Below, piece by piece: positions 47,536 through 64,000 of a stretch of 64,000 bases of DNA. Under the pieces are notes generated by a model, which worked only from the letters and a program-made list of their open reading frames with translations, made no database searches and was not told the origin of the DNA. Both the position numbers and the translations under genes were made by a program. How positions within the stretch are numbered: position 1 is the first letter of the stretch; every line of letters begins with the position of its first letter. Source of the stretch: an uncultured Geobacter sp. (lineage in GTDB: Bacteria; Desulfobacterota; Desulfuromonadia; Geobacterales; Geobacteraceae). The DNA lies in NCBI GenBank assembly GCA_903925075.1, contig CAIYDQ010000025.1, positions 1 to 64,000 of the forward strand, given 5' to 3'.

Positions 47536-50589
<3,054 letters not shown>

Positions 50590-50759
50590 GCTCTTGATTT
50601 TCAGCTTTGCCAGTTGCGTCCTCGCTTTCAGCCCCCCGGTCGGCGCGCTCCGACCGCTCGCCGTGTCAGCCCGGATCTCGGGGAAGACGGAGCCGGCCCG
50701 GCTCGGCAGGCGCGTCCCGACGGTTATAGGGGGAAGGGGGTAACGGATTGGGTAACGGA

Positions 50760-53700
50760 TTAGCGGAAAGATTCCCGGGAGGCGACGCCGTCGCGCAGTT
50801 CGTGATCGGCGCGGTGCTTTTTCAGCAGTTGCAGGAAACTTCTGTGCAGACGCTCCCGAAAGGCCAGCTCCCAATACTCGGTTTTCTCGCCGCGCAGAAA
50901 TTCGCCGCAGTAGACGCGGATCAACTCGTCCACCCAGGGGGCGATGGCGGCGCACGGCTCCGCGGCCGCCTCCCCGCCGCCGAGGTGGGCGTCGATCCTG
51001 GCCAGGGTCTCCTTGAAGGCCCAGGCGTCCACCCAGCACATCTTGCGGTTCAGGGCCAGCCATCCCTCGCGCGACTCGATCAGGCGCGGCTCGCCCAAGA
51101 GGCGGCGCAGCCGGGAGAGCGCCATCTTCAGGGAGCTGTGGGCCGCGTCCCCGTCGGCCGAGGGCCAGAGCAGATCGCACAGGGTCTCCAGCGGCGCCCC
51201 CCGCTCTCCGTGGACCACCAGCGCCTTCAAAAGCGAGAGCGGCTTTTCCTGTTTTTTGCCGGCGAAGGCGAGCCGCTCCCCCTGCTTCTCGATGCGAAAC
51301 CCTCCCAGGGTCAGGATTTTCAGCGGCCAGGGCCACTGCGCGCTGTTCAACAGGGTCCGGTCCGGCGACAGCCGGTGCCTCACGATCAACTCGCGCACGT
51401 ACTCGGGCTCGATGCGCGCCTGCAGCGCCTGGCAGCAGAGCCTGGCCATGATCTTCGGGGTCCAGAAGTGGTGCATCGCTATCCGCTGCTCGCAGCCGAC
51501 GGCCATCGCCTGGCGCAGATAACAGACGCCGGCCGCGTCGTCCTCCCGGCAAAAGGCGAAGTAGGCCAGGGTGCAGTCGAGCATGTAGCGGATGTAATCG
51601 GAATGGGCGGCGTTGCCGTGACGGACCTCGTGCAGGGAGTCGAGCGCCTCCTGCCGTCTCCCCAGCTCGAAGAGCACCTGGGCGCGGGCGACGACGTTGA
51701 TGGCGATCTCGATGGGAGCCTCGTGGCTGCGCGTCAGCTCCAGGGCGGCTTCCACGTGCTCCAGGGCGCCGCGGTAGTCCCCGGCCGCCATCCGCTTCCA
51801 TCCCAGGACCTGGCGGTGGACGATGGGGTAGATCAGCCCCGGCGCGCCCTGCACCGAGGCGATGCGCTCCAGAAAGTCCTCGATCACCCTCGGGTCCAGG
51901 TCGATGAAGCCGGCCAGGGCGCCGTAAAAGAGGGTGAAGATGTCGTAGACGTGCATGCCGGTGCTGTCGGAGAGGGCCAGCGCCTCGGCGACGCCGTCCA
52001 GGCAGGGCTCCTTGGCCGCGGTAAGTCCGTGATAGGAGGCGGTCAGCATGCGCCAAAGACCCAGCGCCAGGCAGAACTCGCTCTGCTTGTCCCTGGTGCG
52101 CGGCTCGACCACCTCGATGAGCACCTTGGCCTTGGCCAGCTGCCCCATCTTGGTGTAGTGGATCAGCAGGTAGGCGCCCAGCAGCACCAGATTTTCCAGG
52201 GTGAGGACGTTGCTGCGGATCAGCACCCCGGCCCGTTGCTCGTAGAGCAGGACGTTGGCATGCCAGGGCTGCCGGAAGCTGAAGGAAAGCAGGATCACCC
52301 CCAAAAGGCGCGCCTGCAGGTCGGCCGGCAGGTACTCGATCTCCCCTTCCAGCTCCGGCGTCAGCAGGTCGATCTGTCGGTCCAGCCGCGAGAACTGCCG
52401 CCACTCGGTGATGATGTTGATCCCCACCCCGCCCCAGGCCAAAAGCGCGCCCGCCGTCTCGCCGGCCGCGAGCAAGCCGCGGAAGGCGGCGGCGTAGGCG
52501 TCGTGGCTGGCGGGGATGTCGAGGGGATGCAGGCAGGCCCCGCGCCAGTAGCTGAGCCAAGGGTCGGCGGCGAAGGCCGCCGCGGGGAGATGGGAGAGCC
52601 ACTGCTCGACGGTCTTGCTTCTCCCCTGCTCCACCAGCGCCTGGGCATGGGTGGCGATCAGGCCGGAGAGACCGGCGAAGTCCCCGGCGCCGGCGAAAAG
52701 CTCCACGGCGTCGTTCAGATAGCCCGCCTCCTGCAGGACCGCGGCCGTGTGCCTGAGGGTGGCGGTCAAGGCCTCCGGCGGCAGGCTCGCCCGGGCGCGC
52801 TCGCGCAGGAAATCGCGAAACAGCGGATGGTATTGATAGACGGGGGTGGCTCCGGCCCGCCAGTCGGTGAAATAGTTGTCGCGGCTCAACTCGGCCAGAA
52901 AGCGCCCCGCCTGCCCCACGCCCGCCAGCCGCTGCGCCATGCCGGTGGTCATGAAGGGGGCGAAGGCGGTCTTCAGCAGGAAGTCCCTGATTTCCGGGGT
53001 GGAGTTCTTGAAGATCTCGTGGGCGAAGTAATCGAAGACGTCCTCGCGGCTTTGCTCCAGCGAGAGCTGCGCGTCCGGCCCCTCCACCCGGGCCATGCCC
53101 ATCATCAGGATCAGCCCGGCGGCCCAGCCGTCCGCCTTGTCGTGCAGTTGGCGCGCGATGGCCGGCCGCTCCGCCTCCAGACCGTTCAGGCGCAGGATCT
53201 CGAGCGATTCCTCCGGGGAGAGGCGCAGGTCGCTCCACCCCATCAAGGCCATGCGGTTGTTGGCGCGCAGCCGGGCGAGCTGCGAGGGGGCGCCCCCGCG
53301 GCTGACGATCACCACCGCCACCCGCTCGGGGACCGCCTCGATGGCCTGCCGCAGGATATCGTGCAGCACCGAGTGGGCCGGGAGTTCCTGATAGTCGTCC
53401 AGCACCAGCACCGAGCGCTCCGGCCCGGAGTCGGCCGGCAGTTGCCGCGACATCCTGCCGAACAGCTCCTCGAAATAACGGCGCGCGAAGGCGGCCACGT
53501 CCTGCAGATAGTCCGAGCTGAAAAGCGGCAACAACTTCCGCTTTCTCCGGTTCAGCCGGGCCTCGGCCTGCCTCAGGTAATAGAAGAAGGAGGCCGGGTC
53601 CTGGTCGCTGCCGTCGAGCTGGTACCAGATGCAGGGATGGCTGCGCCAATTGAGCCAACTGGCGACCAGGGAACTCTTGCCGGAGCCGGCCGGAGCCGAG

Positions 53701-53819
53701 ATCCAGCAAGCCGGCTTGCAGGTCCCCTGGTCCAGCAGCCTGAACAGCCGCTCGCGCGGGAAGATGTTGCCGGCGTCGGGGCGCGAGAGTTTCGAAATGG
53801 ATGCCGCAAACTGTTTCAT
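50760..53819 (-). CDS. MalT-like STAND ATPase with C-terminal winged-helix/BTAD region
   Basis: About 1019 residues. The N-terminal NTPase has Walker A APAGSGKSS (about 42-50) and Walker B VLVLDD. A helical middle region with TPR-like repeats follows (for example YRGALEHVEAALEL). The C-terminus (about 830-1010) starts LKILTLGGFRIEKQGERL and reads as an OmpR-like winged helix plus bacterial transcriptional activator (BTAD) region, with AAHSSLKMALSRLRRLLG. Such proteins are signal-gated activators that oligomerise on ATP and ligand binding; here BTAD replaces the LuxR helix of MalT. The ATG at 53819 is preferred over an upstream TTG. It is 170 bp upstream of the hybrid kinase on the same strand and divergent from the hydrogenase. 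Target genes are unknown. Confidence 0.88.
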   Translation of the reverse strand: MKQFAASISKLSRPDAGNIFPRERLFRLLDQGTCKPACWISAPAGSGKSSLVASWLNWRSHPCIWYQLDGSDQDPASFFYYLRQAEARLNRRKRKLLPLFSSDYLQDVAAFARRYFEELFGRMSRQLPADSGPERSVLVLDDYQELPAHSVLHDILRQAIEAVPERVAVVIVSRGGAPSQLARLRANNRMALMGWSDLRLSPEESLEILRLNGLEAERPAIARQLHDKADGWAAGLILMMGMARVEGPDAQLSLEQSREDVFDYFAHEIFKNSTPEIRDFLLKTAFAPFMTTGMAQRLAGVGQAGRFLAELSRDNYFTDWRAGATPVYQYHPLFRDFLRERARASLPPEALTATLRHTAAVLQEAGYLNDAVELFAGAGDFAGLSGLIATHAQALVEQGRSKTVEQWLSHLPAAAFAADPWLSYWRGACLHPLDIPASHDAYAAAFRGLLAAGETAGALLAWGGVGINIITEWRQFSRLDRQIDLLTPELEGEIEYLPADLQARLLGVILLSFSFRQPWHANVLLYEQRAGVLIRSNVLTLENLVLLGAYLLIHYTKMGQLAKAKVLIEVVEPRTRDKQSEFCLALGLWRMLTASYHGLTAAKEPCLDGVAEALALSDSTGMHVYDIFTLFYGALAGFIDLDPRVIEDFLERIASVQGAPGLIYPIVHRQVLGWKRMAAGDYRGALEHVEAALELTRSHEAPIEIAINVVARAQVLFELGRRQEALDSLHEVRHGNAAHSDYIRYMLDCTLAYFAFCREDDAAGVCYLRQAMAVGCEQRIAMHHFWTPKIMARLCCQALQARIEPEYVRELIVRHRLSPDRTLLNSAQWPWPLKILTLGGFRIEKQGERLAFAGKKQEKPLSLLKALVVHGERGAPLETLCDLLWPSADGDAAHSSLKMALSRLRRLLGEPRLIESREGWLALNRKMCWVDAWAFKETLARIDAHLGGGEAAAEPCAAIAPWVDELIRVYCGEFLRGEKTEYWELAFRERLHRSFLQLLKKHRADHELRDGVASRESFR

Positions 53820-54000
53820 CGATCTCACTCGTTGTGGCGAAGCGGCGGTCAAAGCCGGGAGGGATGCGGCTGCGCACCCGGCAGCAGACCATAACTAGCT
53901 GCTTAATGAATCTATGTCAAGCAGATCGGACAGTTCCGGGCGGACCAGATGGAGATTTTTCCCTGCGCCCGCCACCCCCGAAGCCCCTGCTCACCTTCTA

Positions 54001-54372: not shown

Positions 54373-55518
54373 ATGGGCAAAAAAAGAGCGGATGCGGCGC
54401 GCGGCAGGCAGGCGGAGGATCTGGAGGAGCGGCACTATTCGGTGGGGGAACTGCTCAAGGAGCGCGGGGTTTCCCGCCGCAGCTTCCTGAAATTCTGCTC
54501 CACGGTAACGGCGGCCCTGGCGCTCCCCGCGTCTTTGGCGCCCAGCGTCGCCCGGGCGCTCGATCAGGTGCAGCGGCCGCCCCTGGTGTGGCTGGAATTC
54601 CAGGGGTGCACCGGCGACTCCGAGGCGCTCTTGCGCTCGGCCAACCCGACGGTGGGCGAGATCGTGCTCGACATCCTCTCGGTCGACTATCACGAAACCA
54701 TCATGGCGGCGGCCGGGCACCAGGCCGAGGCCGCGCTGGACAAGACCATCGCCGACAACAAGGGGAAATACTTCTGCGTGATCGAAGGCTCCATCCCCAT
54801 GAAGGACGGCGGCGTCTACGGCTGCGTGGGGGGGAAGTCGCACCTTGAGCGGGCCCGCCAGGTCTGCGGCTCCGCCGCGGCCACCATCGCCATCGGCACC
54901 TGCGCCTCCTACGGCGGCATCGCCGCCGCCTCCCCCAACCCGACCGGGGCGGTCGGCGTCAAGGAAGCGGTCCCCGGGGCCACCGTCATCAACCTCCCCG
55001 GCTGCCCGTGCAACGCGGACAACCTGACCGCCACCATCGTGCACTACCTGGTGTTCGGCAAGATCCCGGCACTGGACGGCCACGGCCGCCCGCTCTTCGC
55101 CTACGGCAAGCGCATCCACGACAACTGCGAGCGCCGCCCGCATTTCGACGCCGGCCAGTACGTCGAGCATTGGGGCGACGACGGCCACCGCGGGGGCTTT
55201 TGCCTCTACAAGATGGGGTGCAAGGGGCCGGCCACCTTCCACAACTGCCCGACCCAGCGCTACAACGGCAAGACCAGTTGGCCGGTGGCCGCCGGCCACC
55301 CCTGCGCCGGCTGCTCGGAGCCGTCCTTTTGGGACACCATGTCGCCCATGTACCGGCGCCTCCCCAACGTCCCCGGCTTCGGCATCGAGCACTCGGCCGA
55401 CATGATCGGCCTGGGACTGGCGGCGGGCACGGCGGGCGCCTTCGCCGTCCACGGCGCCTTGAACGCCCTGCGCAAGGACAAGGAACCCGCCAACCGCGAC
55501 GAAAACAAGGAGGGCTAA
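54373..55518 (+). CDS. Periplasmic [NiFe]-hydrogenase small subunit (HyaS-like)
   Basis: A 381-residue electron-transfer subunit. A Tat signal is present (R35-R36 in SRRSFLKF), then the proximal-cluster region reads GCTGDSE, with C79 and D82 where most group 1 enzymes have Cys-x2-Cys. Other ligands are YGCVGG, GCPCN, and the distal/medial sets ending PCAGCSEP. It lacks the extra cysteines of E. coli Hya-type oxygen-tolerant enzymes. A C-terminal hydrophobic helix (about 345-365) anchors it. An Asp-ligated proximal cluster is known from actinobacterial-type (group 1h) enzymes; group 1f, typified by Geobacter Hya, is the likely class here. AAGGAGG precedes the ATG. Confidence 0.94.
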   Translation: MGKKRADAARGRQAEDLEERHYSVGELLKERGVSRRSFLKFCSTVTAALALPASLAPSVARALDQVQRPPLVWLEFQGCTGDSEALLRSANPTVGEIVLDILSVDYHETIMAAAGHQAEAALDKTIADNKGKYFCVIEGSIPMKDGGVYGCVGGKSHLERARQVCGSAAATIAIGTCASYGGIAAASPNPTGAVGVKEAVPGATVINLPGCPCNADNLTATIVHYLVFGKIPALDGHGRPLFAYGKRIHDNCERRPHFDAGQYVEHWGDDGHRGGFCLYKMGCKGPATFHNCPTQRYNGKTSWPVAAGHPCAGCSEPSFWDTMSPMYRRLPNVPGFGIEHSADMIGLGLAAGTAGAFAVHGALNALRKDKEPANRDENKEG

Positions 55519-55521
55519 GGG

Positions 55522-57213
55522 ATGGCCAAGATAGTAGTCGACCCGATCACCAGGATTGAAGGACATCTGCGCATCGAGGCGGAGCTCAGCGACGGCAAGA
55601 TAGCCGACGCCTGGGCCTCCGGCACCATGTTCCGCGGCATCGAGAAGATCCTCCAGGGGCGCGACCCGCGCGACGCCTGGTTCTGGACCCAGCGCTTCTG
55701 CGGGGTCTGCACCACCGTGCACTCCATCGCCTCCATCCGCGCCGTCGAGGACGCGCTGAAGATCAAGATCCCGCCCAACGCCCAGTTGATCCGCAACATC
55801 ATCATCGGCATCCAGAACACCCAGGACCACGTGATTCATTTCTATCACCTGCATGCCCTGGACTGGGTGGACATCACCTCGGGGCTCAAGGCCGATCCGG
55901 TGAAGACCGCGCAACTGGCCGCCTCCATTTCCGACTGGCCCAACAACTCGGCCACCTACTTCAAGGGGGTGCAGGACAAGATCAAGGCCTTCGTCGCCTC
56001 CGGCCGCCTCGGCCCCTTCGCCAACGCCTACTGGGGTCACCCCGCCTACCGGCTGCCGCCGGAGGCGAACCTGATGGCCACCGCCCACTACCTGGAGGCG
56101 TTGGAATGGCAAAAGGACGTGATCAAGATCCACGCCATCCTGGGGAGCAAGAACCCCCATCCCCAGACCTTCCTGGTGGGGGGGATGTCGATCCCCATCG
56201 ACCCCGACTCCCAGAACGCGCTCAACGCCGACAAGCTGATGGAGATCAGGCGGCTTTTGAAGAAGTCGCAGGATTTCGTGGAGAAGGTGTACGTCCCCGA
56301 CCTGTTGGCGGTCGCCTCCTTCTACAAGGATTGGGCCGCCATCGGCGCCGGGGTCGGCAACTACATGTGCTACAGCGAGTTCCCCGACGCCAACGGCAAG
56401 CCGTGGCTCCCCGGGGGCGCCATCCTCAACCGGGACATCACCCGCGTGGTGGCAATCGACCAGAAGAAGATCACCGAGCACGTCGACCACTCCTGGTACG
56501 AGGACGCGGGGGGGAAGGGGCTGCATCCCTTCGACGGCGAGACCAAGCCGAACTACACCGGCCCCAAGCCCCCCTACGAGCACCTGGACACCGACAAGAA
56601 GTACTCCTGGGTCAAAGCGCCGCGCTACGAGGAGAAGGCCATGGAGGTGGGGCCGCTCTCCCGGGTGCTGGTGGCGTACGTGTCCGGACACCCGGAGACC
56701 AAGGCCGTGGTGGACATGGTGCTGAAGAAGCTGGACGTAGGCCCGGCGGCGCTCTTCTCGACCCTGGGCAGAACCGGGGCCCGCGGCATCGACTGCCTGC
56801 TGATCGCCCGCCAGACCACCAAATGGCTGGACGAGTTGATCGGCAACATCTCCAAGGGGGACTACCGCATCCACTCGGGCGAGCTGTGGGACCCGGCAAC
56901 CTGGCCGGCGGAGGCCAACGGCTACGGCTGGCACGAGGCGCCCCGCGGCGGGCTGGGTCACTGGATCAAGATCAAGGACCAGAAGATCCTCAACTATCAG
57001 GCGGTGGTCCCCTCGACCTGGAACGCCTCGCCGCGCGACGCCAAGGGGCAGCGAGGGCCCTACGAGGCGGCGCTGGTGGGGACGCCGATCGCCGACGCCA
57101 GCAAGCCGCTGGAGATATTGCGCACCATCCATTCCTTCGACCCCTGCCTGGCCTGCGCCGTGCACGTGCTGGACGCCCGGGGGAACGAAGTGGTGAAGGT
57201 CAAGGTATCCTAG
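55522..57213 (+). CDS. Periplasmic [NiFe]-hydrogenase large subunit (HyaL-like)
   Basis: A 563-residue catalytic subunit binding the NiFe(CN)2CO centre. The L1 motif is RFCGVCTTVH (about 58-67) and the L2 motif is DPCLACAVH near the C-terminus. After the last His, 15 residues (VLDARGNEVVKVKVS) remain for removal by a maturation endopeptidase. It is exported with the Tat-tagged small subunit. It starts 4 bp after the small-subunit stop. No maturation protease or hyp genes are seen here, so maturation must come from elsewhere. Confidence 0.97.
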   Translation: MAKIVVDPITRIEGHLRIEAELSDGKIADAWASGTMFRGIEKILQGRDPRDAWFWTQRFCGVCTTVHSIASIRAVEDALKIKIPPNAQLIRNIIIGIQNTQDHVIHFYHLHALDWVDITSGLKADPVKTAQLAASISDWPNNSATYFKGVQDKIKAFVASGRLGPFANAYWGHPAYRLPPEANLMATAHYLEALEWQKDVIKIHAILGSKNPHPQTFLVGGMSIPIDPDSQNALNADKLMEIRRLLKKSQDFVEKVYVPDLLAVASFYKDWAAIGAGVGNYMCYSEFPDANGKPWLPGGAILNRDITRVVAIDQKKITEHVDHSWYEDAGGKGLHPFDGETKPNYTGPKPPYEHLDTDKKYSWVKAPRYEEKAMEVGPLSRVLVAYVSGHPETKAVVDMVLKKLDVGPAALFSTLGRTGARGIDCLLIARQTTKWLDELIGNISKGDYRIHSGELWDPATWPAEANGYGWHEAPRGGLGHWIKIKDQKILNYQAVVPSTWNASPRDAKGQRGPYEAALVGTPIADASKPLEILRTIHSFDPCLACAVHVLDARGNEVVKVKVS

Positions 57214-57229
57214 CGAAGGAGGCCAGCTC

Positions 57230-57895
57230 ATGCCCAATCAGCCAAAATTCAAACGCTACGTCTGGCAGTTGCCGGTCCGCTGGTGCCATTGGACCAACGC
57301 GCTGTCCATCGTCGTCCTCTGCGTGACCGGCTTCTTCATCGGCACGCCTATCTCCTTCGGCGGCTCGCCCTCGGACTTCACCATGGGATGGATCCGTTTC
57401 TTCCATTTCACGGCGGCCTACGCCTTCACCGTGAGCCTCGCCTCCCGGGTGCTCTGGTCGCTGATCGGCAACGAGTTCTCGGGGTGGCGGGCCTTTTTCC
57501 CCTTTTTCAGCGCCAAGGGGCGCGACAAGATGCTGAAGATGCTGCGCTACTATCTGTTCCTGGACCGGGAGGTGCCGGAGACCATCGGCCACAACCCGCT
57601 GGCGACCACCGCCTACCTGGCGCTCTTTTTCCTCTACATGGTGATGATCGCCACCGGCTTCGCGCTCTACGCCCAGCACGCGCCCCACGGGGTGATGCAC
57701 GCAGCGCTCGGCTTCATGTACACCCTGTTCAGCAACCAGGGGATGCGGCTTACCCACCACCTGAGCATGTGGTTCATCGTCGGTTTCGCCATCAACCACA
57801 TCTACAGCGCCTGGCTGATGGACATCAAGGAGCACGGCGGCGAGATCTCCAGCATGTTCAGCGGCTACAAGTTCACCGTGAAAAAGGAGGATTGA
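57230..57895 (+). CDS. Hydrogenase cytochrome b subunit
   Basis: A 221-residue membrane subunit that passes electrons from the hydrogenase to the quinone pool. Four to five membrane helices and the haem b histidines are visible: VRWCHWTNALSIVVL, RFFHFTAAYAF, and LTHHLSMWFIVGFAINHIYSAW. GAAGGAGG precedes the ATG. It completes a small-large-cytochrome b operon of H2-uptake type. A protease gene often found next in Geobacter is absent; repeats follow instead. Confidence 0.95.
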   Translation: MPNQPKFKRYVWQLPVRWCHWTNALSIVVLCVTGFFIGTPISFGGSPSDFTMGWIRFFHFTAAYAFTVSLASRVLWSLIGNEFSGWRAFFPFFSAKGRDKMLKMLRYYLFLDREVPETIGHNPLATTAYLALFFLYMVMIATGFALYAQHAPHGVMHAALGFMYTLFSNQGMRLTHHLSMWFIVGFAINHIYSAWLMDIKEHGGEISSMFSGYKFTVKKED

Positions 57896-57944
57896 AGCCG
57901 GCGCCGCCGTGCAAATAAACTCAAGTTTCATGTCATATAACCCC

Positions 57945-58048
57945 GATGCGGTTCGTGCCTCACCGCATCCTACGATTGCCCCATGAAATTCGCAGCCCCC
58001 CCGGCATGCGAACCCGTAGGATGCCGGTGAACGCAGTGAACCGCATCG
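57945..58048. repeat. REP-like repeat family B, copies 3 and 4 (inverted pair)
   Basis: 57945-57973 (arms GATGCGGT and ACCGCATC) and 58016-58048 are family B members in opposite orientation, just past the hydrogenase operon. The segment between includes a second, unrelated 40 bp. The pair may end the transcript. Confidence 0.75.
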
Positions 58049-58140
58049 GTTTTTCACCCTCCGCCCCCTCCCCCACCAAGGGCTCGTCCGCCGAAGGAGG
58101 GAGAGGGGGTTTTTGATCCGCGTCGACCCGTAAACTTAAC
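58049..58140 (+). repeat. Dispersed repeat family C, copy 3 (diverged)
   Basis: C-rich/G-rich hairpin core with AAGGGCTCGTCCGCCGAAGG in the middle and the family end TTTTTGATCCGCGTCGACC. It abuts a family B element. The remaining DNA to 58467 has no supported gene; it is AT-rich from about 58395 and probably holds the promoter of the next operon. Confidence 0.7.
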
Positions 58141-58467
58141 GGCAATGCCCCCCGCGCCCTACCCGCCGTCCGCCAGTGCCCGTTACCTTTCTGTATACAG
58201 CCTCCGGCCTCGCCGCCAAGATTCAACTCTGGACTTTCTCTCGCAACGATGCTAATTAAGACTGCCGCTCGAAGATAAAAAGACGTTTGAGCGCTTGGCG
58301 ACAGGGTGCTCGCGGTCCGCCATGAGAGCGGCTTAGGGAAAACCCGCATTCAGCGTGAGCGGCCGCCCATCTTACAGCGGCCGCGCGTCAGTAAGATTGA
58401 TTTCGATTCATAAATAAAAATTTTAATCCAGTGCCGGCGTCGACCCTGCATGAGAGAAAGCCCCTTA

Positions 58468-59583
58468 ATGAGCCAACCTCAAACGATTCTGATCATCGAC
58501 GACACGCCGCTCAACGTCACCCTTTTGGACGTGATCCTGCGTCCGGCCGGATATCGCACGCTCAAGGCCTTCTCCGGCGCGGAGGGAAGGGCACTGGCGC
58601 TGCAAAAATCCCCCTCCCTGATCCTGCTCGACATCACCATGCCGGGGGAAGACGGCATCACCACCTGCCGGATCCTCAAGGCCGACCCGCGCACCAGCGA
58701 GATCCCGGTGATCTTCATCTCCGCTTTGAACAGCACCAACGACAAGGTCTCGGGCTTTGCCAACGGCGCCGTAGACTACATCACCAAGCCCTTCGAAAGG
58801 ACCGAGGTGCTGGCAAGGGTCGCCGCCCACCTGCAGACGCGGGAGAAGATCACCTCGGCCCTGCGCCAGCAGCACCAGATTCTCGACCAGTTGCAGCGCG
58901 CCCAACTGGGGATGCTGGTCAAACCCGAGGAGCTGCCGCAGGCGGGCTTCGCCGTCTGCTACCGAGCCGTGCACGCCGTGGGAGGCGATTTCTACGATGT
59001 CTGCCCCACCAAGGACGGCACCTTCGCCTATTTCGTGGCCGACATCAGCGGCCACGACCTGGACGTCTCCTTCAACACCTCGGCGATCAAGGCGCTCTTC
59101 CGGCAAAGCGCCGGGGCCGACGGCTCGTCCGAAGAGATCCTCGACTCCATCAATCGCGGCGTCATGCCGCTTTTCGACAACGGCATGCATATGACCGGCT
59201 GCCTGTTGCGGCTGGACCGCCTGGCCTCCACCGCGACCCTGGTCAACGCCGGTCACCTGCCGGTCATCCACCTGGGCGCCGACGGCTCGGCGGCGCTGTT
59301 CGAAGCCGAAGGGGATATCCTGGGGGTCTTCGAGCACCTGGTGCTCAAGCCCGCCAGCAAACGGGTGCGCCGGGGGGACCGCTTGTTCCTTTACACCGAC
59401 GGCCTGGTGGAGCTGGACGGGGAGAGCCTGGACCGCCACGAGGGGATCGACCGGCTGCTGGCGCTTTGCCGCGCCACCGCCTCGCTGCCGCTTTCCGAGG
59501 CGGTGGCCGCCATCTGCGCCCGCATCTTTCCCGAGCACCTGCCGCCCGGCGACGACATCATCCTGCTGGGAGTGGAGGTCTAG
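58468..59583 (+). CDS. Receiver-PP2C (RsbU/SpoIIE-type) serine phosphatase
   Basis: A 371-residue response-regulated phosphatase. The receiver (about 6-120) has IDDT, D55 in LLDITMPG and K104-type lysine in ITKPFE. A short coiled coil leads to a PP2C domain (about 165-370) with metal ligands in GGDFYDV, ADISGHDLD and the final PPGDDIILLGVEV. It should dephosphorylate a STAS protein when phosphorylated. The second ATG (58468) is preferred for its GAGAAAG site; an ATG at 58450 is possible. It is followed immediately by the kinase-STAS fusion, its expected substrate. Confidence 0.92.
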   Translation: MSQPQTILIIDDTPLNVTLLDVILRPAGYRTLKAFSGAEGRALALQKSPSLILLDITMPGEDGITTCRILKADPRTSEIPVIFISALNSTNDKVSGFANGAVDYITKPFERTEVLARVAAHLQTREKITSALRQQHQILDQLQRAQLGMLVKPEELPQAGFAVCYRAVHAVGGDFYDVCPTKDGTFAYFVADISGHDLDVSFNTSAIKALFRQSAGADGSSEEILDSINRGVMPLFDNGMHMTGCLLRLDRLASTATLVNAGHLPVIHLGADGSAALFEAEGDILGVFEHLVLKPASKRVRRGDRLFLYTDGLVELDGESLDRHEGIDRLLALCRATASLPLSEAVAAICARIFPEHLPPGDDIILLGVEV

Positions 59584-60345
59584 ATGCTGAACTTGGAGCG
59601 GGAGCCCTCCCGGCTCGATGCGGCCTTCTCCTCGGAACTGGTCCACGTCGAGGAGACCTGCCGCGCCGTGCGGGGCCTGCTCGCCGACCACAGGCTGTCG
59701 CCGCTGAGCTTCGCCTGCGATCTGGTGCTGCGCGAACTGCTGAACAACGCGGTGCTGCACGGCAACCGCAACAACCCGGAGCTGGCGGTCGAGTGCCTGG
59801 TGCTGATCACCGACCGGGCGCTGGTGCTGGAGGTGGCCGACCAGGGAGAGGGGTTCGCCTGGCGGGAGCGCTTCCCGCCCCCCGACGGGGAGTCGCTCTG
59901 CGTGAACGAGCAGGGTGAATTGCTCACCTCCAGCTACGGCATGAGAATACTGGCGGATTACGCCGACGAAGTGATCTTCAACGACAAGGGCAACAAGGTT
60001 GCCGTTCGCATAGATAAACACCTAAGGGAGGGCGCTTTAATGTCCACAGTCCACAAAGAGGGTCAACGAGCCGTATTACGGCCCAGCGGCAATATAGTAG
60101 CGGCGCACATGGAGTCGCTGCGCACGGAGCTGAAGCAGCTGCTGGCGGAAGGGGTGCTGGAGCTGTCGGTCGATCTCGGCGAGGTGAAGATGATCGATTC
60201 GATGGGGCTTGGCGTGCTGATCTCGGCGCACAACTCGCTGAAGAAGGCGGGAGGCTCATTCGCGGTGATCAACGCTTCCAAGGATCTCTACGATCTGTTC
60301 CGCAGCATGCGCCTCACCCAGCACTTTTCGGTGACTGCCGCCTAA
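59584..60345 (+). CDS. Anti-sigma-factor-type serine kinase fused to STAS antagonist domain
   Basis: 253 residues combining two normally separate partners. Residues about 10-146 are an RsbW-like HATPase_c_2 domain (N box RELLNNAVLHGN, DQGEGF, SYGMRI). Residues about 155-253 are a STAS anti-anti-sigma domain with phosphorylatable S206 in IDSMGLG. The join (about 147-153) has no stop codon, and an excellent internal ribosome-binding site precedes M153. Both full-length fusion and free STAS protein may therefore be made. In classical switches the kinase phosphorylates the STAS serine and a PP2C removes it; all three activities are encoded here together. It starts 3 bp after the phosphatase stop. 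Confidence 0.88.
   Translation: MLNLEREPSRLDAAFSSELVHVEETCRAVRGLLADHRLSPLSFACDLVLRELLNNAVLHGNRNNPELAVECLVLITDRALVLEVADQGEGFAWRERFPPPDGESLCVNEQGELLTSSYGMRILADYADEVIFNDKGNKVAVRIDKHLREGALMSTVHKEGQRAVLRPSGNIVAAHMESLRTELKQLLAEGVLELSVDLGEVKMIDSMGLGVLISAHNSLKKAGGSFAVINASKDLYDLFRSMRLTQHFSVTAA
60024..60042 (+). promoter_or_regulatory. Strong internal ribosome-binding site and in-frame ATG before the STAS domain
   Basis: AAGGGAGGG (60024-60032), 7 nt, then ATG (60040-60042), in the same frame as the upstream kinase. This is a near-ideal initiation site exactly at the domain boundary. Confidence 0.75.
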
Positions 60346-60360
60346 CCAAGGGGTATCGAC

Positions 60361-63300
60361 ATGGACATTATCGATGACGAACTGATTGCCGATTATGTGG
60401 AGGAATCCCGCGAGCATCTGGCGGATATCGAAAGCGACCTGCTCACCATCGAGGAGCAGGGCGAGAACATCAACCCCGACCTGGTCAACAAGGTGTTTCG
60501 CGCCGCCCACTCCATCAAGGGGGGCGCCGGTTTTCTGAACCTGAATACGGTCAAGGACCTGTCCCACAAGATCGAAAACGTGCTGAGCCTGGTGCGCAAC
60601 CGGGAGCTGATTCCTACCCCGGAGGTGGTCAACGTCATGTTGGTCTCCTTCGACAAGTTGCGCGAGCTGATCAACAACCTGCAGCAGAGCAACCAGGCGG
60701 ACGTCTCCGAGCTGCTGGTCGCGCTTACCCGGATCATCACCCCGGAAAAGCCCCAGGACAGCGCCCCGAACGCGCCCCTGGAAGAAACGGTGCAGATCCC
60801 CCTGCCGCACGGGGTGGAAAGCATCACCGCCTCCCGTTTCGACCTCAACCAGGCCGCCAAGGAGGGAAACCAGGTCTATCTGGCGGAATTCGATCTGATT
60901 CACGACGTGCACAACCTCTGGCGCACGCCGCACGACCTGATCCGCACCATCGACGGCTGCGGGCTGCTTTTGGAGAGCATGGTGCCGCTCATGGACGTCG
61001 GCACCCTGGACGAGGAGCCGGTCAACCGCATCCCGTTTTACGCGCTGATCGCCAGCTCGCGCAACGCGGCGGAGCTGGCCGCCGAGTTCAAGATCGGCGT
61101 CGAGCATATCGCCTTGGTGAGCGCCGCCGATGGTGCGCCGGTGGCCTCCTCCGCCGCCGGCCCGGCCGCTCCCCTCGCCCCGCCGGCTCTCCCGCAGACG
61201 TCGACGCCGCCGGCCGCGGCGCAGACGGTCGCTGCGCAAACGCCGGCCGCTCCCCAAATGCCGGCCGCCCCGCAGGCGGTCGCCTCGCAAACGCCGGCCG
61301 CGCCGCAAATGTCGGCAACGCCGCAGCTCGCCGCTTCCCTGGAGCATGCCCCGCTCGCGGTCAACGGGAAAACTCCCGCGCCGGGACGGGCGACGACCCC
61401 AAGCGTTGTGAGCGTCCCGGTCTCGCCGCAGACGCCGCTCCCCGCCGAGCAGACCGCCGAATCCACCCTGCGCATCAACGTGGCGGTGCTGGATACGCTG
61501 ATGAACCTGGCGGGCGAGATGGTGCTCGGGCGCAACCAGCTGCTGCAGGCCATCAGCCGCAACGACGCGGTCGCCATCAAGGCCGCCGGCTACCGCATCA
61601 ACACGGTCACCTCGGAGCTGCAGGAAGCGATCATGCTGACCCGGATGCAGCCCATCGGCACCATCTTGAACCGCTTCACCCGCATCGTGCGCGACATGTC
61701 GCGCGACCTGGGCAAGGAGATCGCCCTCACCATCACCGGCAAAGACGTGGAGCTGGACAAGACCATCATCGAGGGTCTGAGCGACCCGCTCACCCACCTG
61801 GTGCGAAACGCGGTCGACCACGGCGTGGAAGGTCCGGCGAAAAGACGCGCGGCCGGCAAGGCCGCGGCCGGCGCCATCGAGCTGAACGCCTTCCACGAGG
61901 CCGGCCAGGTGATCATCGAGATCAGGGACGACGGCGGCGGCATCGACCCCGAAAAAGTGGCGGCGGCGGCGATCTCCAAAGGGCTTTTGACCCACGAGCA
62001 GGTCCGGCAGCTCTCCGACAAGGAGAAGCGCTTCCTGATCATGATGCCCGGCTTCTCCACCGCCGAGACCATCACCGACATCTCCGGCCGCGGCGTCGGC
62101 ATGGACGTGGTGAAAACCAACATCGAGCGCCTGAACGGCCAGATCGAGATCGAGAGCGAGCTGGGGAAGGGCTCGGTGTTCAGGATCAAGCTGCCGCTGA
62201 CCCTGGCCATCATCCCCTCGCTGTTCGTCGAGGCGCAGGGGCAGCGCTTCGCCATCCCCCAGGCCAACGTGGTGGAGGCGATCCGCATCCCGGCGGAACA
62301 GGTCAAAGAGCGCATCGAACAGGTGGGGGACGCCGACGTGCTCATGCTGCGCGGCAGCATCATCCCGATCGTGCGGCTGGCCGACGCGCTGGAGATCGCG
62401 GCGCCGACCTCCCCGGAAGAGCGGCCGCTCCTCGCCGGCCGCGCCCGGCTCCCCTCCCGCCCGCAGGCCAAGGCGTCGCCCGCGGAGCCGGCCGCGGACC
62501 CGGCGACGGACGACGGGCAGCGCGACCTCCCCGCCCCGCTTAGCCGGGGCGCGGACGGCCAGCAGGCGGGGGGCGACCTCAACCTGGTGATCGTCACCAC
62601 CGGCGCCATGCAATACGCCATCGTGGTCAATAAGCTGTTCGACTCCGAGGAGATCGTGGTGAAGCCCCTGGGGCGGCGCCTGAAGCATATCCGGGAGTTT
62701 GCCGGCGCTACCATCATGGGGGATGGCAAGGTGGCCCTGATCCTGGACGCCCCCGGCCTGGCCGCGGTCAGCGGCATCGACGCGGCCGCCGCCACGGCGC
62801 GCGACCAGAAAAAGCTGCAGATCGCGGGAGGCGAGGAGGCCGAGATCCAGGCCCTGCTCACCTTCCACTACGGCGCCGAGCAGCAGCTCGCCGTGCCGCT
62901 GGAGCTGGTGGCGCGGGTGGAGAAGATCGCCCCCAAGGACGTGGAGACGGTGGGCGGCCGGCGGGTCATGCAGTACCGCGGCCAGGTCATGCCGCTGGTG
63001 ATGGTGAACGACACCGCCCTGGTGGACGGGCCGGACCTGACCCGGGACCTGGTGGTGATCGTCTTCGAGGTGGCGGGCCACGAAATCGGGCTGGTGGCCA
63101 ACCAGCCGGTGGATTCGGCCGAGTGCCGGATCGCCATCGACAGCAGCATCCTGCGCCAGCCGGGGATCCTCGGCTCGGTGATCCTGAAGAAGCGCACCCT
63201 GGTGATCGTGGACATCTTCGAGCTGGTGGAGACGCTGCACCCCGAATGGTTCGCGGAGCGCCGCCTGATCCGCGGCGGCGCCACCGCCAAGACCGTGCTC

Positions 63301-63651
63301 TTGGCCGAGGATTCCGATTTCTTCCGGGCTCAGGTGAGAAGGTTCATGGAGGACGAAGGGTACAAGGTGATCGGCTGCGAGGACGGCCAGCTCGCCTGGC
63401 AGGCCCTCGACCGCCAGGAGGAGCCGATCCACCTGGTGGTCACCGACATCGAGATGCCCAACATGAACGGCTACGAGTTGACCAAGCGGATCAGGGGAGA
63501 CCACCGTTTCCGCACCCTCCCCATCATCGCCGTCACCTCGCTGGCCGGCGAGGAGGACATCGAGCGCGGCCGGCAGGCGGGCCTCACCAATTACCTGGTC
63601 AAGCTGGACCGCGAAAAACTGCTGGAAGCGATCGCCGCCCTATCGCTGTAG
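60361..63651 (+). CDS. CheA-type chemotaxis kinase with C-terminal receiver (FrzE-like)
   Basis: 1096 residues. Hpt (H50 in AAHSIKGGAGF), a middle domain (about 140-265), an Ala/Pro/Gln linker, dimerisation and ATPase domains (HLVRNAVDHGVE, DDGGGID, GRGVGMDVV), then a CheW-like P5 region interrupted by a charged insert (about 680-735). A second CheW-like segment (about 820-970) and a receiver (about 980-1095; EDSDFF, VVTDIEMPNMNG, VKLDRE) follow. The receiver phosphosite is present, and the conserved Lys is in LVKLD. CheA-receiver fusions of this type run non-flagellar or alternative pathways. It is 15 bp after the kinase-STAS gene. Confidence 0.93.
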   Translation: MDIIDDELIADYVEESREHLADIESDLLTIEEQGENINPDLVNKVFRAAHSIKGGAGFLNLNTVKDLSHKIENVLSLVRNRELIPTPEVVNVMLVSFDKLRELINNLQQSNQADVSELLVALTRIITPEKPQDSAPNAPLEETVQIPLPHGVESITASRFDLNQAAKEGNQVYLAEFDLIHDVHNLWRTPHDLIRTIDGCGLLLESMVPLMDVGTLDEEPVNRIPFYALIASSRNAAELAAEFKIGVEHIALVSAADGAPVASSAAGPAAPLAPPALPQTSTPPAAAQTVAAQTPAAPQMPAAPQAVASQTPAAPQMSATPQLAASLEHAPLAVNGKTPAPGRATTPSVVSVPVSPQTPLPAEQTAESTLRINVAVLDTLMNLAGEMVLGRNQLLQAISRNDAVAIKAAGYRINTVTSELQEAIMLTRMQPIGTILNRFTRIVRDMSRDLGKEIALTITGKDVELDKTIIEGLSDPLTHLVRNAVDHGVEGPAKRRAAGKAAAGAIELNAFHEAGQVIIEIRDDGGGIDPEKVAAAAISKGLLTHEQVRQLSDKEKRFLIMMPGFSTAETITDISGRGVGMDVVKTNIERLNGQIEIESELGKGSVFRIKLPLTLAIIPSLFVEAQGQRFAIPQANVVEAIRIPAEQVKERIEQVGDADVLMLRGSIIPIVRLADALEIAAPTSPEERPLLAGRARLPSRPQAKASPAEPAADPATDDGQRDLPAPLSRGADGQQAGGDLNLVIVTTGAMQYAIVVNKLFDSEEIVVKPLGRRLKHIREFAGATIMGDGKVALILDAPGLAAVSGIDAAAATARDQKKLQIAGGEEAEIQALLTFHYGAEQQLAVPLELVARVEKIAPKDVETVGGRRVMQYRGQVMPLVMVNDTALVDGPDLTRDLVVIVFEVAGHEIGLVANQPVDSAECRIAIDSSILRQPGILGSVILKKRTLVIVDIFELVETLHPEWFAERRLIRGGATAKTVLLAEDSDFFRAQVRRFMEDEGYKVIGCEDGQLAWQALDRQEEPIHLVVTDIEMPNMNGYELTKRIRGDHRFRTLPIIAVTSLAGEEDIERGRQAGLTNYLVKLDREKLLEAIAALSL

Positions 63652-63709
63652 CCCGACAACTCCACTGACCGGTTTAGGCCGTTGTTCCCCCCTTGGGAGA
63701 GGAAAAAAA

Positions 63710-64000
63710 ATGTTAGAGAACATGACGCTCAAGACCCGCCTCATCGCCAGCTTCGCCATCGTGCTGTCGCTAACCGTCGGCATCAGCCTCGCCGCCCTTT
63801 TCGGCATCGGTCTGTTGCGAAACAACGTCAACGACCTGGCCTTCAAGCAGGGAAAGCTGATGGAAAACGGCCAGCGCTCGCGGGCCAACATCAACATGAT
63901 GAGGCGCTACGAGAAGGATCTGTTCATAAACATCGGCGACGAGGCCAAAACCGAGGAATACAAGAAAAAATGGGACGAAACCCTGGACCACTTCCTGAAG
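63710..64000 (+). CDS. Methyl-accepting chemotaxis protein, N-terminal part (runs off window edge)
   Basis: 97 residues visible: a short basic N-terminus (MLENMTLKTRLIASF), a membrane helix (about 12-36) and the start of a periplasmic helical-bundle ligand domain. GAGAGG precedes the ATG. As the next gene after cheA it is the likely input receptor of this pathway. The signalling part lies outside the window. Confidence 0.85.
   Translation, partial: MLENMTLKTRLIASFAIVLSLTVGISLAALFGIGLLRNNVNDLAFKQGKLMENGQRSRANINMMRRYEKDLFINIGDEAKTEEYKKKWDETLDHFLK

Follow-up and report, generated by a model that had tools for sequence, protein, structure and literature searches.

A kinase-STAS fusion gene in a chemosensory operon

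The window, that is, the whole 64,000-nucleotide stretch of contig CAIYDQ010000025.1 from an uncultured Geobacter sp. (GCA_903925075.1), ends in a signalling operon with the following features.

58450..59583, + strand: REC-PP2C (SpoIIE-type) phosphatase gene, 377 aa, probable antagonist phosphatase (Pfam Response_reg, E 3.7e-24; SpoIIE, E 8.5e-31)
59584..60345, + strand: HATPase_c_2-STAS fusion ORF, 253 aa, no internal stop (ORF list and translation)
59626..60009, + strand: HATPase_c_2 kinase domain, residues 15-142 (Pfam E 8.6e-16; SpoIIAB matches by sequence and fold)
60024..60032, + strand: internal Shine-Dalgarno (SD) sequence AAGGGAGGG, with an ATG at 60040 after N7 (duplex -11.8 kcal/mol)
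60025..60036, + strand: codons of a predicted flexible hinge, residues 148-151 (AlphaFold2 pLDDT under 50)
60040..60345, + strand: predicted free STAS product, 101 aa, from the internal ATG (M153), which corresponds to the start of free STAS genes
60070..60327, + strand: STAS domain, residues 163-248 (Pfam E 2.1e-13)
60199..60201, + strand: S206, predicted phospho-acceptor serine (Ser in 63/65 STAS sequences)
60361..63651, + strand: CheA-type kinase with Hpt, dimerisation, HATPase_c, CheW-like and REC domains, 1096 aa (Pfam)
63710..64000, + strand: start of an MCP gene that continues past the window (ORF; named MCP by sequence reading)

The Pfam matches of HATPase_c_2 and STAS both exceeded the curated cut-offs, and the STAS domain was matched as well when the frame was read from 60040 (E 2.4e-14). 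Thus, the open reading frame, its translation and the domain matches confirm what an earlier note on this DNA had described, namely a kinase and a STAS protein encoded in one frame with no stop codon between them. The same note had the acceptor serine and the kinase motifs as retained, and the comparison bears this out: R50, E51, N55, A56, H59, G60, D86, G88, G90, G119, G136, D205 and S206 are invariant in the 35 aligned fusions, and all of these except A56, G136, D205 and S206 belong to what we take to be the ATP-binding motifs of the kinase. In the window the context of S206 is IDSMGLG, and the only two of the 65 STAS sequences with Ala at this position are those of loci L067 and L068 (the second STAS copies of genomes G035 and G044, on contigs C4 and C337, do not enter this count). 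The HATPase_c_2 match with its invariant residues points to a GHKL serine kinase with ATP-binding motifs, and the STAS match together with S206 points to an antagonist with an acceptor serine, both of the SpoIIAB/RsbW-RsbV type. The third-position G+C content of the ORF ranges from 0.86 to 1.0 over residues 1-121 and falls to 0.48 over residues 141-171.

The AlphaFold2 model, built on an alignment of 35 of the 44 fusions described below, consists of two confident domains (mean pLDDT 87.6, pTM 0.60), and the top Foldseek matches are SpoIIAB, SpoIIAA and RsbV/RsbW (1thn, 1til, 6m36). The pLDDT drops under 50 at residues 99-105, which in this model may be read as the ATP lid, and at residues 148-151, which we read as a probable hinge immediately N-terminal to M153.

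The stop codon of the REC-PP2C gene (TAG, 59581-59583) directly abuts the fusion ATG at 59584, so the receiver-PP2C gene does lie directly upstream, as had been noted earlier; its position and Pfam matches make it a candidate cognate phosphatase that would act on this STAS domain. The CheA gene begins 15 bases downstream of the fusion. Residues 251-566 of the translation from 63710 match the 566-aa receptor frame of locus L064 (3e-129), and the same contig carries more receptor, CheW-like and CheB-like frames beyond the window, named by sequence reading. On another contig of the same genome (C291) there is an ordinary-looking partner switch, in which separate STAS and HATPase frames stand in the opposite order behind a PP2C-like frame.

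Several further observations were made in this genome. Upstream of the signalling operon, at 54373-57895, lie frames resembling the small, large and cytochrome b subunits of a NiFe hydrogenase (sequence reading). At 47536-53892 on the minus strand a 2118-aa open frame overlaps a 1030-aa frame on the same strand and looks in part like an empty G+C-rich frame ahead of a sensor kinase. The genome itself (6.55 Mb) is larger than those of the 18 listed congeners (4.5-5.4 Mb).

The AAGGGAGGG-N7-ATG site that had been pointed out at the domain boundary is present at 60024-60032, with its ATG at 60040. Pairing energies were calculated with a general anti-SD sequence, which may not be that of the host, and of 21 start codons counted in frame within the ORF, the internal one had the strongest predicted pairing (-11.8 kcal/mol). 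The start of the fusion itself, at 59584, gave -9.9 kcal/mol with the same general sequence, which may likewise differ from the host's. A search for the 16S tail in this genome and six others gave no match, two of these seven being one-contig genomes from which the rRNA is possibly absent. The amino acids LREG at the boundary make an SD core likely by themselves (probability 0.81; 0.88 for the boundary of the homologue in genome G116), and the window alone was therefore rejected as proof of an internal start, the support for which is comparative. No sigma-70-like site was detected on either strand of 57800-64000 (0.7 expected in shuffles), which leaves a second transcript from a promoter inside the fusion unsupported, and terminator-like sites in this region were as frequent as expected (5 seen, 5.5 expected).

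Our favoured reading, to which we assign a probability of about 0.6 on the evidence of the sequences, is that one gene gives two products, the fusion and a free STAS protein, and that these serve a partner switch coupled to the CheA cluster.

The internal start across fused genes

Relatives of the fusion were collected by profile searches of the class (277 genomes), a sample of the phylum (395), family f64 (247) and the order of G352 (3), and an additional scan of named genome contigs gave 9 loci. The 65 loci compared here comprise the window, 7 found earlier, 17 from the phylum search and 40 from the later searches. The 40 f64 rows whose E value was 7.6e-51 or lower were all taken (38 of them new, G315 and G562 having been fetched already), together with G814 and G659; of the weaker rows only G543, G482 and G651 were included, which had already come from the phylum search. 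In the phylum search 17 places were taken, the remaining rows, mostly STAS-only, being left out. The order and class searches supplied only G116, G114, G112, G035 and G044. The named-contig scan contributed L035; L034 is the same stretch as L064, L036-L042 were left out and L045 to L048 are uncounted. Genus labels were transferred manually from the tables of the searches.

HATPase and STAS are fused in 44 of the 65 loci and unfused in 21, numbers that represent no frequency because the queries were fused proteins. A PP2C domain is beside or joined to the fusion in 39/44 fused loci, and Hpt or CheA accompanies it in 42/44. The operon of REC-PP2C, HATPase_c_2, STAS and Hpt/CheA occurs in several families of the phylum; the fusion, too, is seen in more than one of them and is one form of a recurring chemosensory partner-switch operon. 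In G562 the order REC-PP2C-HATPase-STAS is contained in one 637-aa frame, and in Desulfobacterales HSG16 (L035, 6480-8729) the fusion reads REC-NMT1_2-HATPase_c_2-STAS, with a substrate-binding-protein-like domain inside the partner-switch kinase.

In two loci the gene after the fusion encodes about 372 aa and carries an Hpt domain at its N-terminus (L102, 8204-9322; L103, 8334-9461). In L102 this gene has a C-terminal STAS_2 domain (Pfam), as if a cut-off CheA front had gained its own STAS.

An in-frame ATG is present in the boundary window at the STAS start in 34 of the 44 fused ORFs, with 19.8 expected from ATG frequency. These ATGs were counted in two ways. When the best-pairing boundary ATG was taken, an SD core lay 5-18 bases upstream in 34/34, compared with 47/209 other in-frame ATGs (Fisher 2e-19, uncorrected for kinship); these controls include ATGs up to 10 codons before the HATPase match, some of which may be real gene starts. 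The mean anti-SD energies of the two sets were -8.05 and -3.18 kcal/mol, again with the general anti-SD sequence, which may not be that of the hosts. When the ATG nearest the STAS start was taken instead and ATGs just before the HATPase were excluded, an SD core was found in 30/34, with 14.7 expected if the amino acids are fixed and synonymous codons are drawn from each gene's usage, and the 184 other in-frame ATGs had no excess (27 seen, 26.2 expected).

Much of the pooled signal comes from the 14 near relatives of g341 (14 SD cores seen, 2.5 expected), whereas g121 (7 seen, 6.2 expected) and g329 (1 seen, 1.2 expected) have little or no excess, and the window and G116 add little. Counted per genus, the SD sum was 8.1 of 9 with 5.0 expected (P for 8 or more 0.014), so that a conserved SD and start codon inside the frame, as in a dual-product gene, are found here with an excess that is modest at this level. 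The boundary ATG is kept over nine genera, with differing amino acids beneath the SD cores, and at the first boundary ATG of the 34 ORFs the cores fall in all three codon phases (21, 6 and 6; one ORF has no core). Met occupies the boundary-ATG column in 27/35 aligned fusions, despite linkers that vary and, in one group, contain an insert some 16 columns long. In addition, the local mRNA structure is weaker at the boundary ATG than at other positions of the ORF (mean difference 4.9 kcal/mol, n=34, Wilcoxon 1.5e-6), and this holds in 7/9 genera (P 0.09).

The ten fused ORFs that have no boundary ATG are those of HSG16, three from g87, G676, three second copies from g329, one from g356 and one from g326; eight of them form one tree group (SH-aLRT 93), in which the linker is short and the fusion adjoins a one-piece Hpt-CheA gene. 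They indicate that not every fusion requires its frame to yield free STAS as well, and by their sequences they look like obligate fusions. The fusion of the window could be of this kind too: only the full-length protein would then matter, acting in cis like the C-terminal half of Rv1364c, which acts on its own antagonist domain (as described in the available part of PMC7693655), and the internal SD could be a relic of formerly separate genes. We consider this unlikely for the window, given that the other 34 fusions keep the ATG over the nine genera, with SD cores in every phase and in excess of the amino-acid expectation both when pooled and per genus. The production of two proteins from the window gene fits this pattern better.

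Split operons and the nearest relatives

Of the 21 unfused loci, 15 contain a HATPase match within the stretch that was fetched (14 within 1.5 kb), and in 11 of them HATPase, PP2C and Hpt/CheA are found together as separate genes in the same order as in the fused operons. The remaining 6 encode a free STAS protein with no HATPase_c_2 match in the fetched locus. The tree, which covers 58 loci, shows fused and split forms changing into one another, six times as it is drawn. Fewer changes are required if only its starred branches count (2 for the split label), and, with long branches and weak deep support, the number of fusion origins is uncertain. The window branches together with G116 and outside the large fused f64 groups.

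The split operons, the loci with free STAS alone and the interchange of forms on the tree could all mean that free STAS is the sole active antagonist and that translation running on from HATPase into STAS is a tolerated consequence of a lost stop codon, the tethered copy being idle. This seems less likely again than an obligate fusion, since many genera retain the stop-free frame, even where linkers differ in length, ten fused ORFs offer no start codon from which a free STAS could be made, and D205-S206 is present in the tethered STAS of 35/35 aligned fusions.

In the Geobacteraceae MAG G114 (locus L034/L064) we found REC-PP2C, a stretch resembling the end of a HATPase, a free 101-aa STAS gene, CheA and a receptor, with no HATPase gene. 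The stretch, at L064 7492-7577 between REC-PP2C and STAS, reads KVTVPMEKHIKKGE and then a stop, and judging from its sequence it is probably the remnant of a deleted HATPase gene. G114 carries a second free STAS gene, and in the fetched locus of G112 there are REC-PP2C and a free STAS but nothing that matches HATPase. M153 of the fusion aligns with the start codon of three free STAS genes of these two genomes (L064, L065 and L066).

G035 and G044, from another family, have a CheX-like/histidine-kinase gene (CheX by sequence reading) upstream of a free STAS gene, CheA and receptors. Here the free STAS adjoining CheA (L067, 5761-6081; L068, 3701-4024) has Ala in place of the acceptor Ser (IDAVG and MDAFG), and these loci have no HATPase_c_2 or PP2C match; their STAS would be a natural non-phosphorylatable version. 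L065 and L110, which also lack HATPase and PP2C matches, keep the acceptor Ser, and the loss of the serine is thus not a simple consequence of the loss of the kinase.

At E 1e-9 the fusion was found in 2/141 genomes of the order, namely that of the window and G116, which belongs to another family; the profile search of the 277 genomes of the class gave no further full-length fused match, and 18/18 congeners had no match to the fusion at E 1e-9. The G116 protein is 64% identical and is encoded in a single frame of 252 aa, flanked by REC-PP2C upstream and CheA downstream, and its junction is AAAGGAGG-N7-ATG. The SD and ATG are kept in both genes while the linker residues differ (LREGALM in the window, PKGGAAM in G116). 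The dN/dS ratio between the two was 0.22 for the HATPase part (dS 1.6) and 0.11 for the STAS part (dS 1.4), with dS near saturation. Moreover, degenerate codons of identical amino acids are unchanged at 9/10 positions within residues 140-160 compared with 68/144 elsewhere (Fisher P 0.009 for this window, which was picked post hoc); a scan of the whole gene gave P 0.055.

The earlier note had reckoned with the possibility that all close relatives carry two separate genes, which is not the case: the nearest full-length relative, G116, is fused, and it is the fetched G114 and G112 loci that have a free STAS and no HATPase_c_2 match. It had also named a sequencing error that hides a stop codon near 60020-60040; an assembly or sequencing error joining two genes, for which the draft state of the genome (368 contigs) and the 18 congeners without a match might speak, is highly improbable because G116 independently has an equally fused gene with its own internal start and both parts are under purifying selection in the same frame.

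A proposed switch with two products and its known counterparts

In the arrangement that we propose, translation from 59584 would give a 253-aa serine kinase tethered by a flexible hinge to its own STAS antagonist, and initiation at the internal SD and ATG (60040) would give a free STAS protein of 101 aa. We infer from the sequences that both proteins are produced and that the kinase phosphorylates S206 of the free STAS and perhaps also that of the tethered one, a phosphorylation that the REC-PP2C phosphatase would reverse. Unphosphorylated STAS would then bind a target. The tethered STAS might occupy or buffer the kinase, and it may compete with free STAS for the kinase or for a common target, while the single mRNA would set the ratio of kinase to antagonist. 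In the simplest wiring, MCP-CheA would donate phosphate to the receiver of REC-PP2C, much as HsbR is phosphorylated by HptB, and by analogy with HptB-HsbR-HsbA and CrsR-CrsA this could alter the amount of unphosphorylated STAS. It had been suggested that the fusion tunes the CheA pathway downstream; a connection with CheA is plausible, but the direction may equally be the reverse, with CheA acting on REC-PP2C. As to the two possibilities first raised for the fusion, dual products are supported by the comparison (conservation of the SD and ATG, codons and the Met column), and a self-phosphorylating switch is compatible with the invariant motifs and with the fusions that have no internal start.

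It seems to us an evenly balanced question whether the arrangement is a conserved device in which one frame provides a kinase with attached substrate and, through a selected internal start, free substrate as well, a single mRNA thereby determining the proportion of tethered and free antagonist in a chemosensory switch. Such a device could have several independent origins, and lineages without an internal start would keep the tethered form only. If true, it would be an unusual way of fixing the proportions in which the components of a switch are made. The working of partner switches is ascribed to parts that bind and separate, and a recurring tethered kinase-antagonist pair, which in 34 of the 44 fused ORFs comes with a start codon for the free antagonist, would offer a clean test of tethering: the free form could be removed by one change and the tethered form by one stop codon. 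In many genomes, moreover, the fusion family connects the PP2C/HATPase/STAS switch with clusters of the CheA type.

The fusion has the same two folds as SpoIIAB-SpoIIAA and RsbW-RsbV, judged by sequence matches and Foldseek, but in Bacillus these are separate proteins. In their solved complexes the partners are separate chains, and a bound sigma factor is known there. In Nostoc punctiforme, HmpU-HmpV-HmpW are a phosphatase, a STAS protein and a kinase of a motility locus whose final target is unknown, according to the available part of PMC8256260. They are three proteins, in contrast to the kinase-STAS fusion of the window, and the likeness lies in their description in that part of the text.

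CrsR/CrsA are encoded inside the che1 chemosensory locus of Shewanella oneidensis (PMC9855816, available part), and HptB donates phosphate to HsbR in Pseudomonas aeruginosa (PMC6482189, available part). What CrsR-CrsA, HsbR-HsbA and the window have in common is a partner switch built from a receiver, a PP2C, a HATPase kinase and an antagonist. However, in CrsR and HsbR the PP2C and kinase share a chain and the antagonist is separate, whereas in the window it is the PP2C that stands apart, and the HATPase is in one chain with the antagonist. For D. vulgaris CheA3, the main text of PMC3944678 does not use the terms STAS, anti-sigma, phosphatase or Hpt and thus offers no tie to the operon.

The premise of the earlier note that known systems keep the kinase and the STAS protein apart was too strong, and as a general statement wrong, given the precedent of Rv1364c from Mycobacterium tuberculosis. 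As described in the available part of PMC7693655, this protein joins sensor, PP2C, kinase and antagonist in one chain and phosphorylates and dephosphorylates its own antagonist domain; its domain order is also given in PMC12143880 and its phosphatase structure is named in PMC7647112, both likewise in the parts available. The window resembles Rv1364c in that kinase and antagonist share a chain, and G562 even has the joined order REC-PP2C-HATPase-STAS. In contrast to Rv1364c, the PP2C ORF of the window ends at 59583 as a separate phosphatase gene, the internal SD and ATG predict a free STAS, and CheA and MCP belong to the operon. An internal start for Rv1364c is not mentioned in the available parts of PMC7693655 and PMC12143880.

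Our literature search, with most subscription journals outside its scope, found no kinase-STAS fusion with an internal start; its Geobacter/CheA/STAS part gave nothing tied to the window locus, and its internal-start part nothing on kinase-STAS fusions. In-frame internal starts are familiar from E. coli cheA, where one frame gives long and short forms, the C-terminal product arising from the internal start. HrcQ has an in-frame internal start as well (PMC8553256, available part). Thus, both the joining of kinase and antagonist (Rv1364c) and internal starts that give C-terminal products (cheA, HrcQ) are already known. The short forms of cheA and HrcQ probably differ from the free STAS predicted here, which would be a substrate of the kinase domain of the long form.
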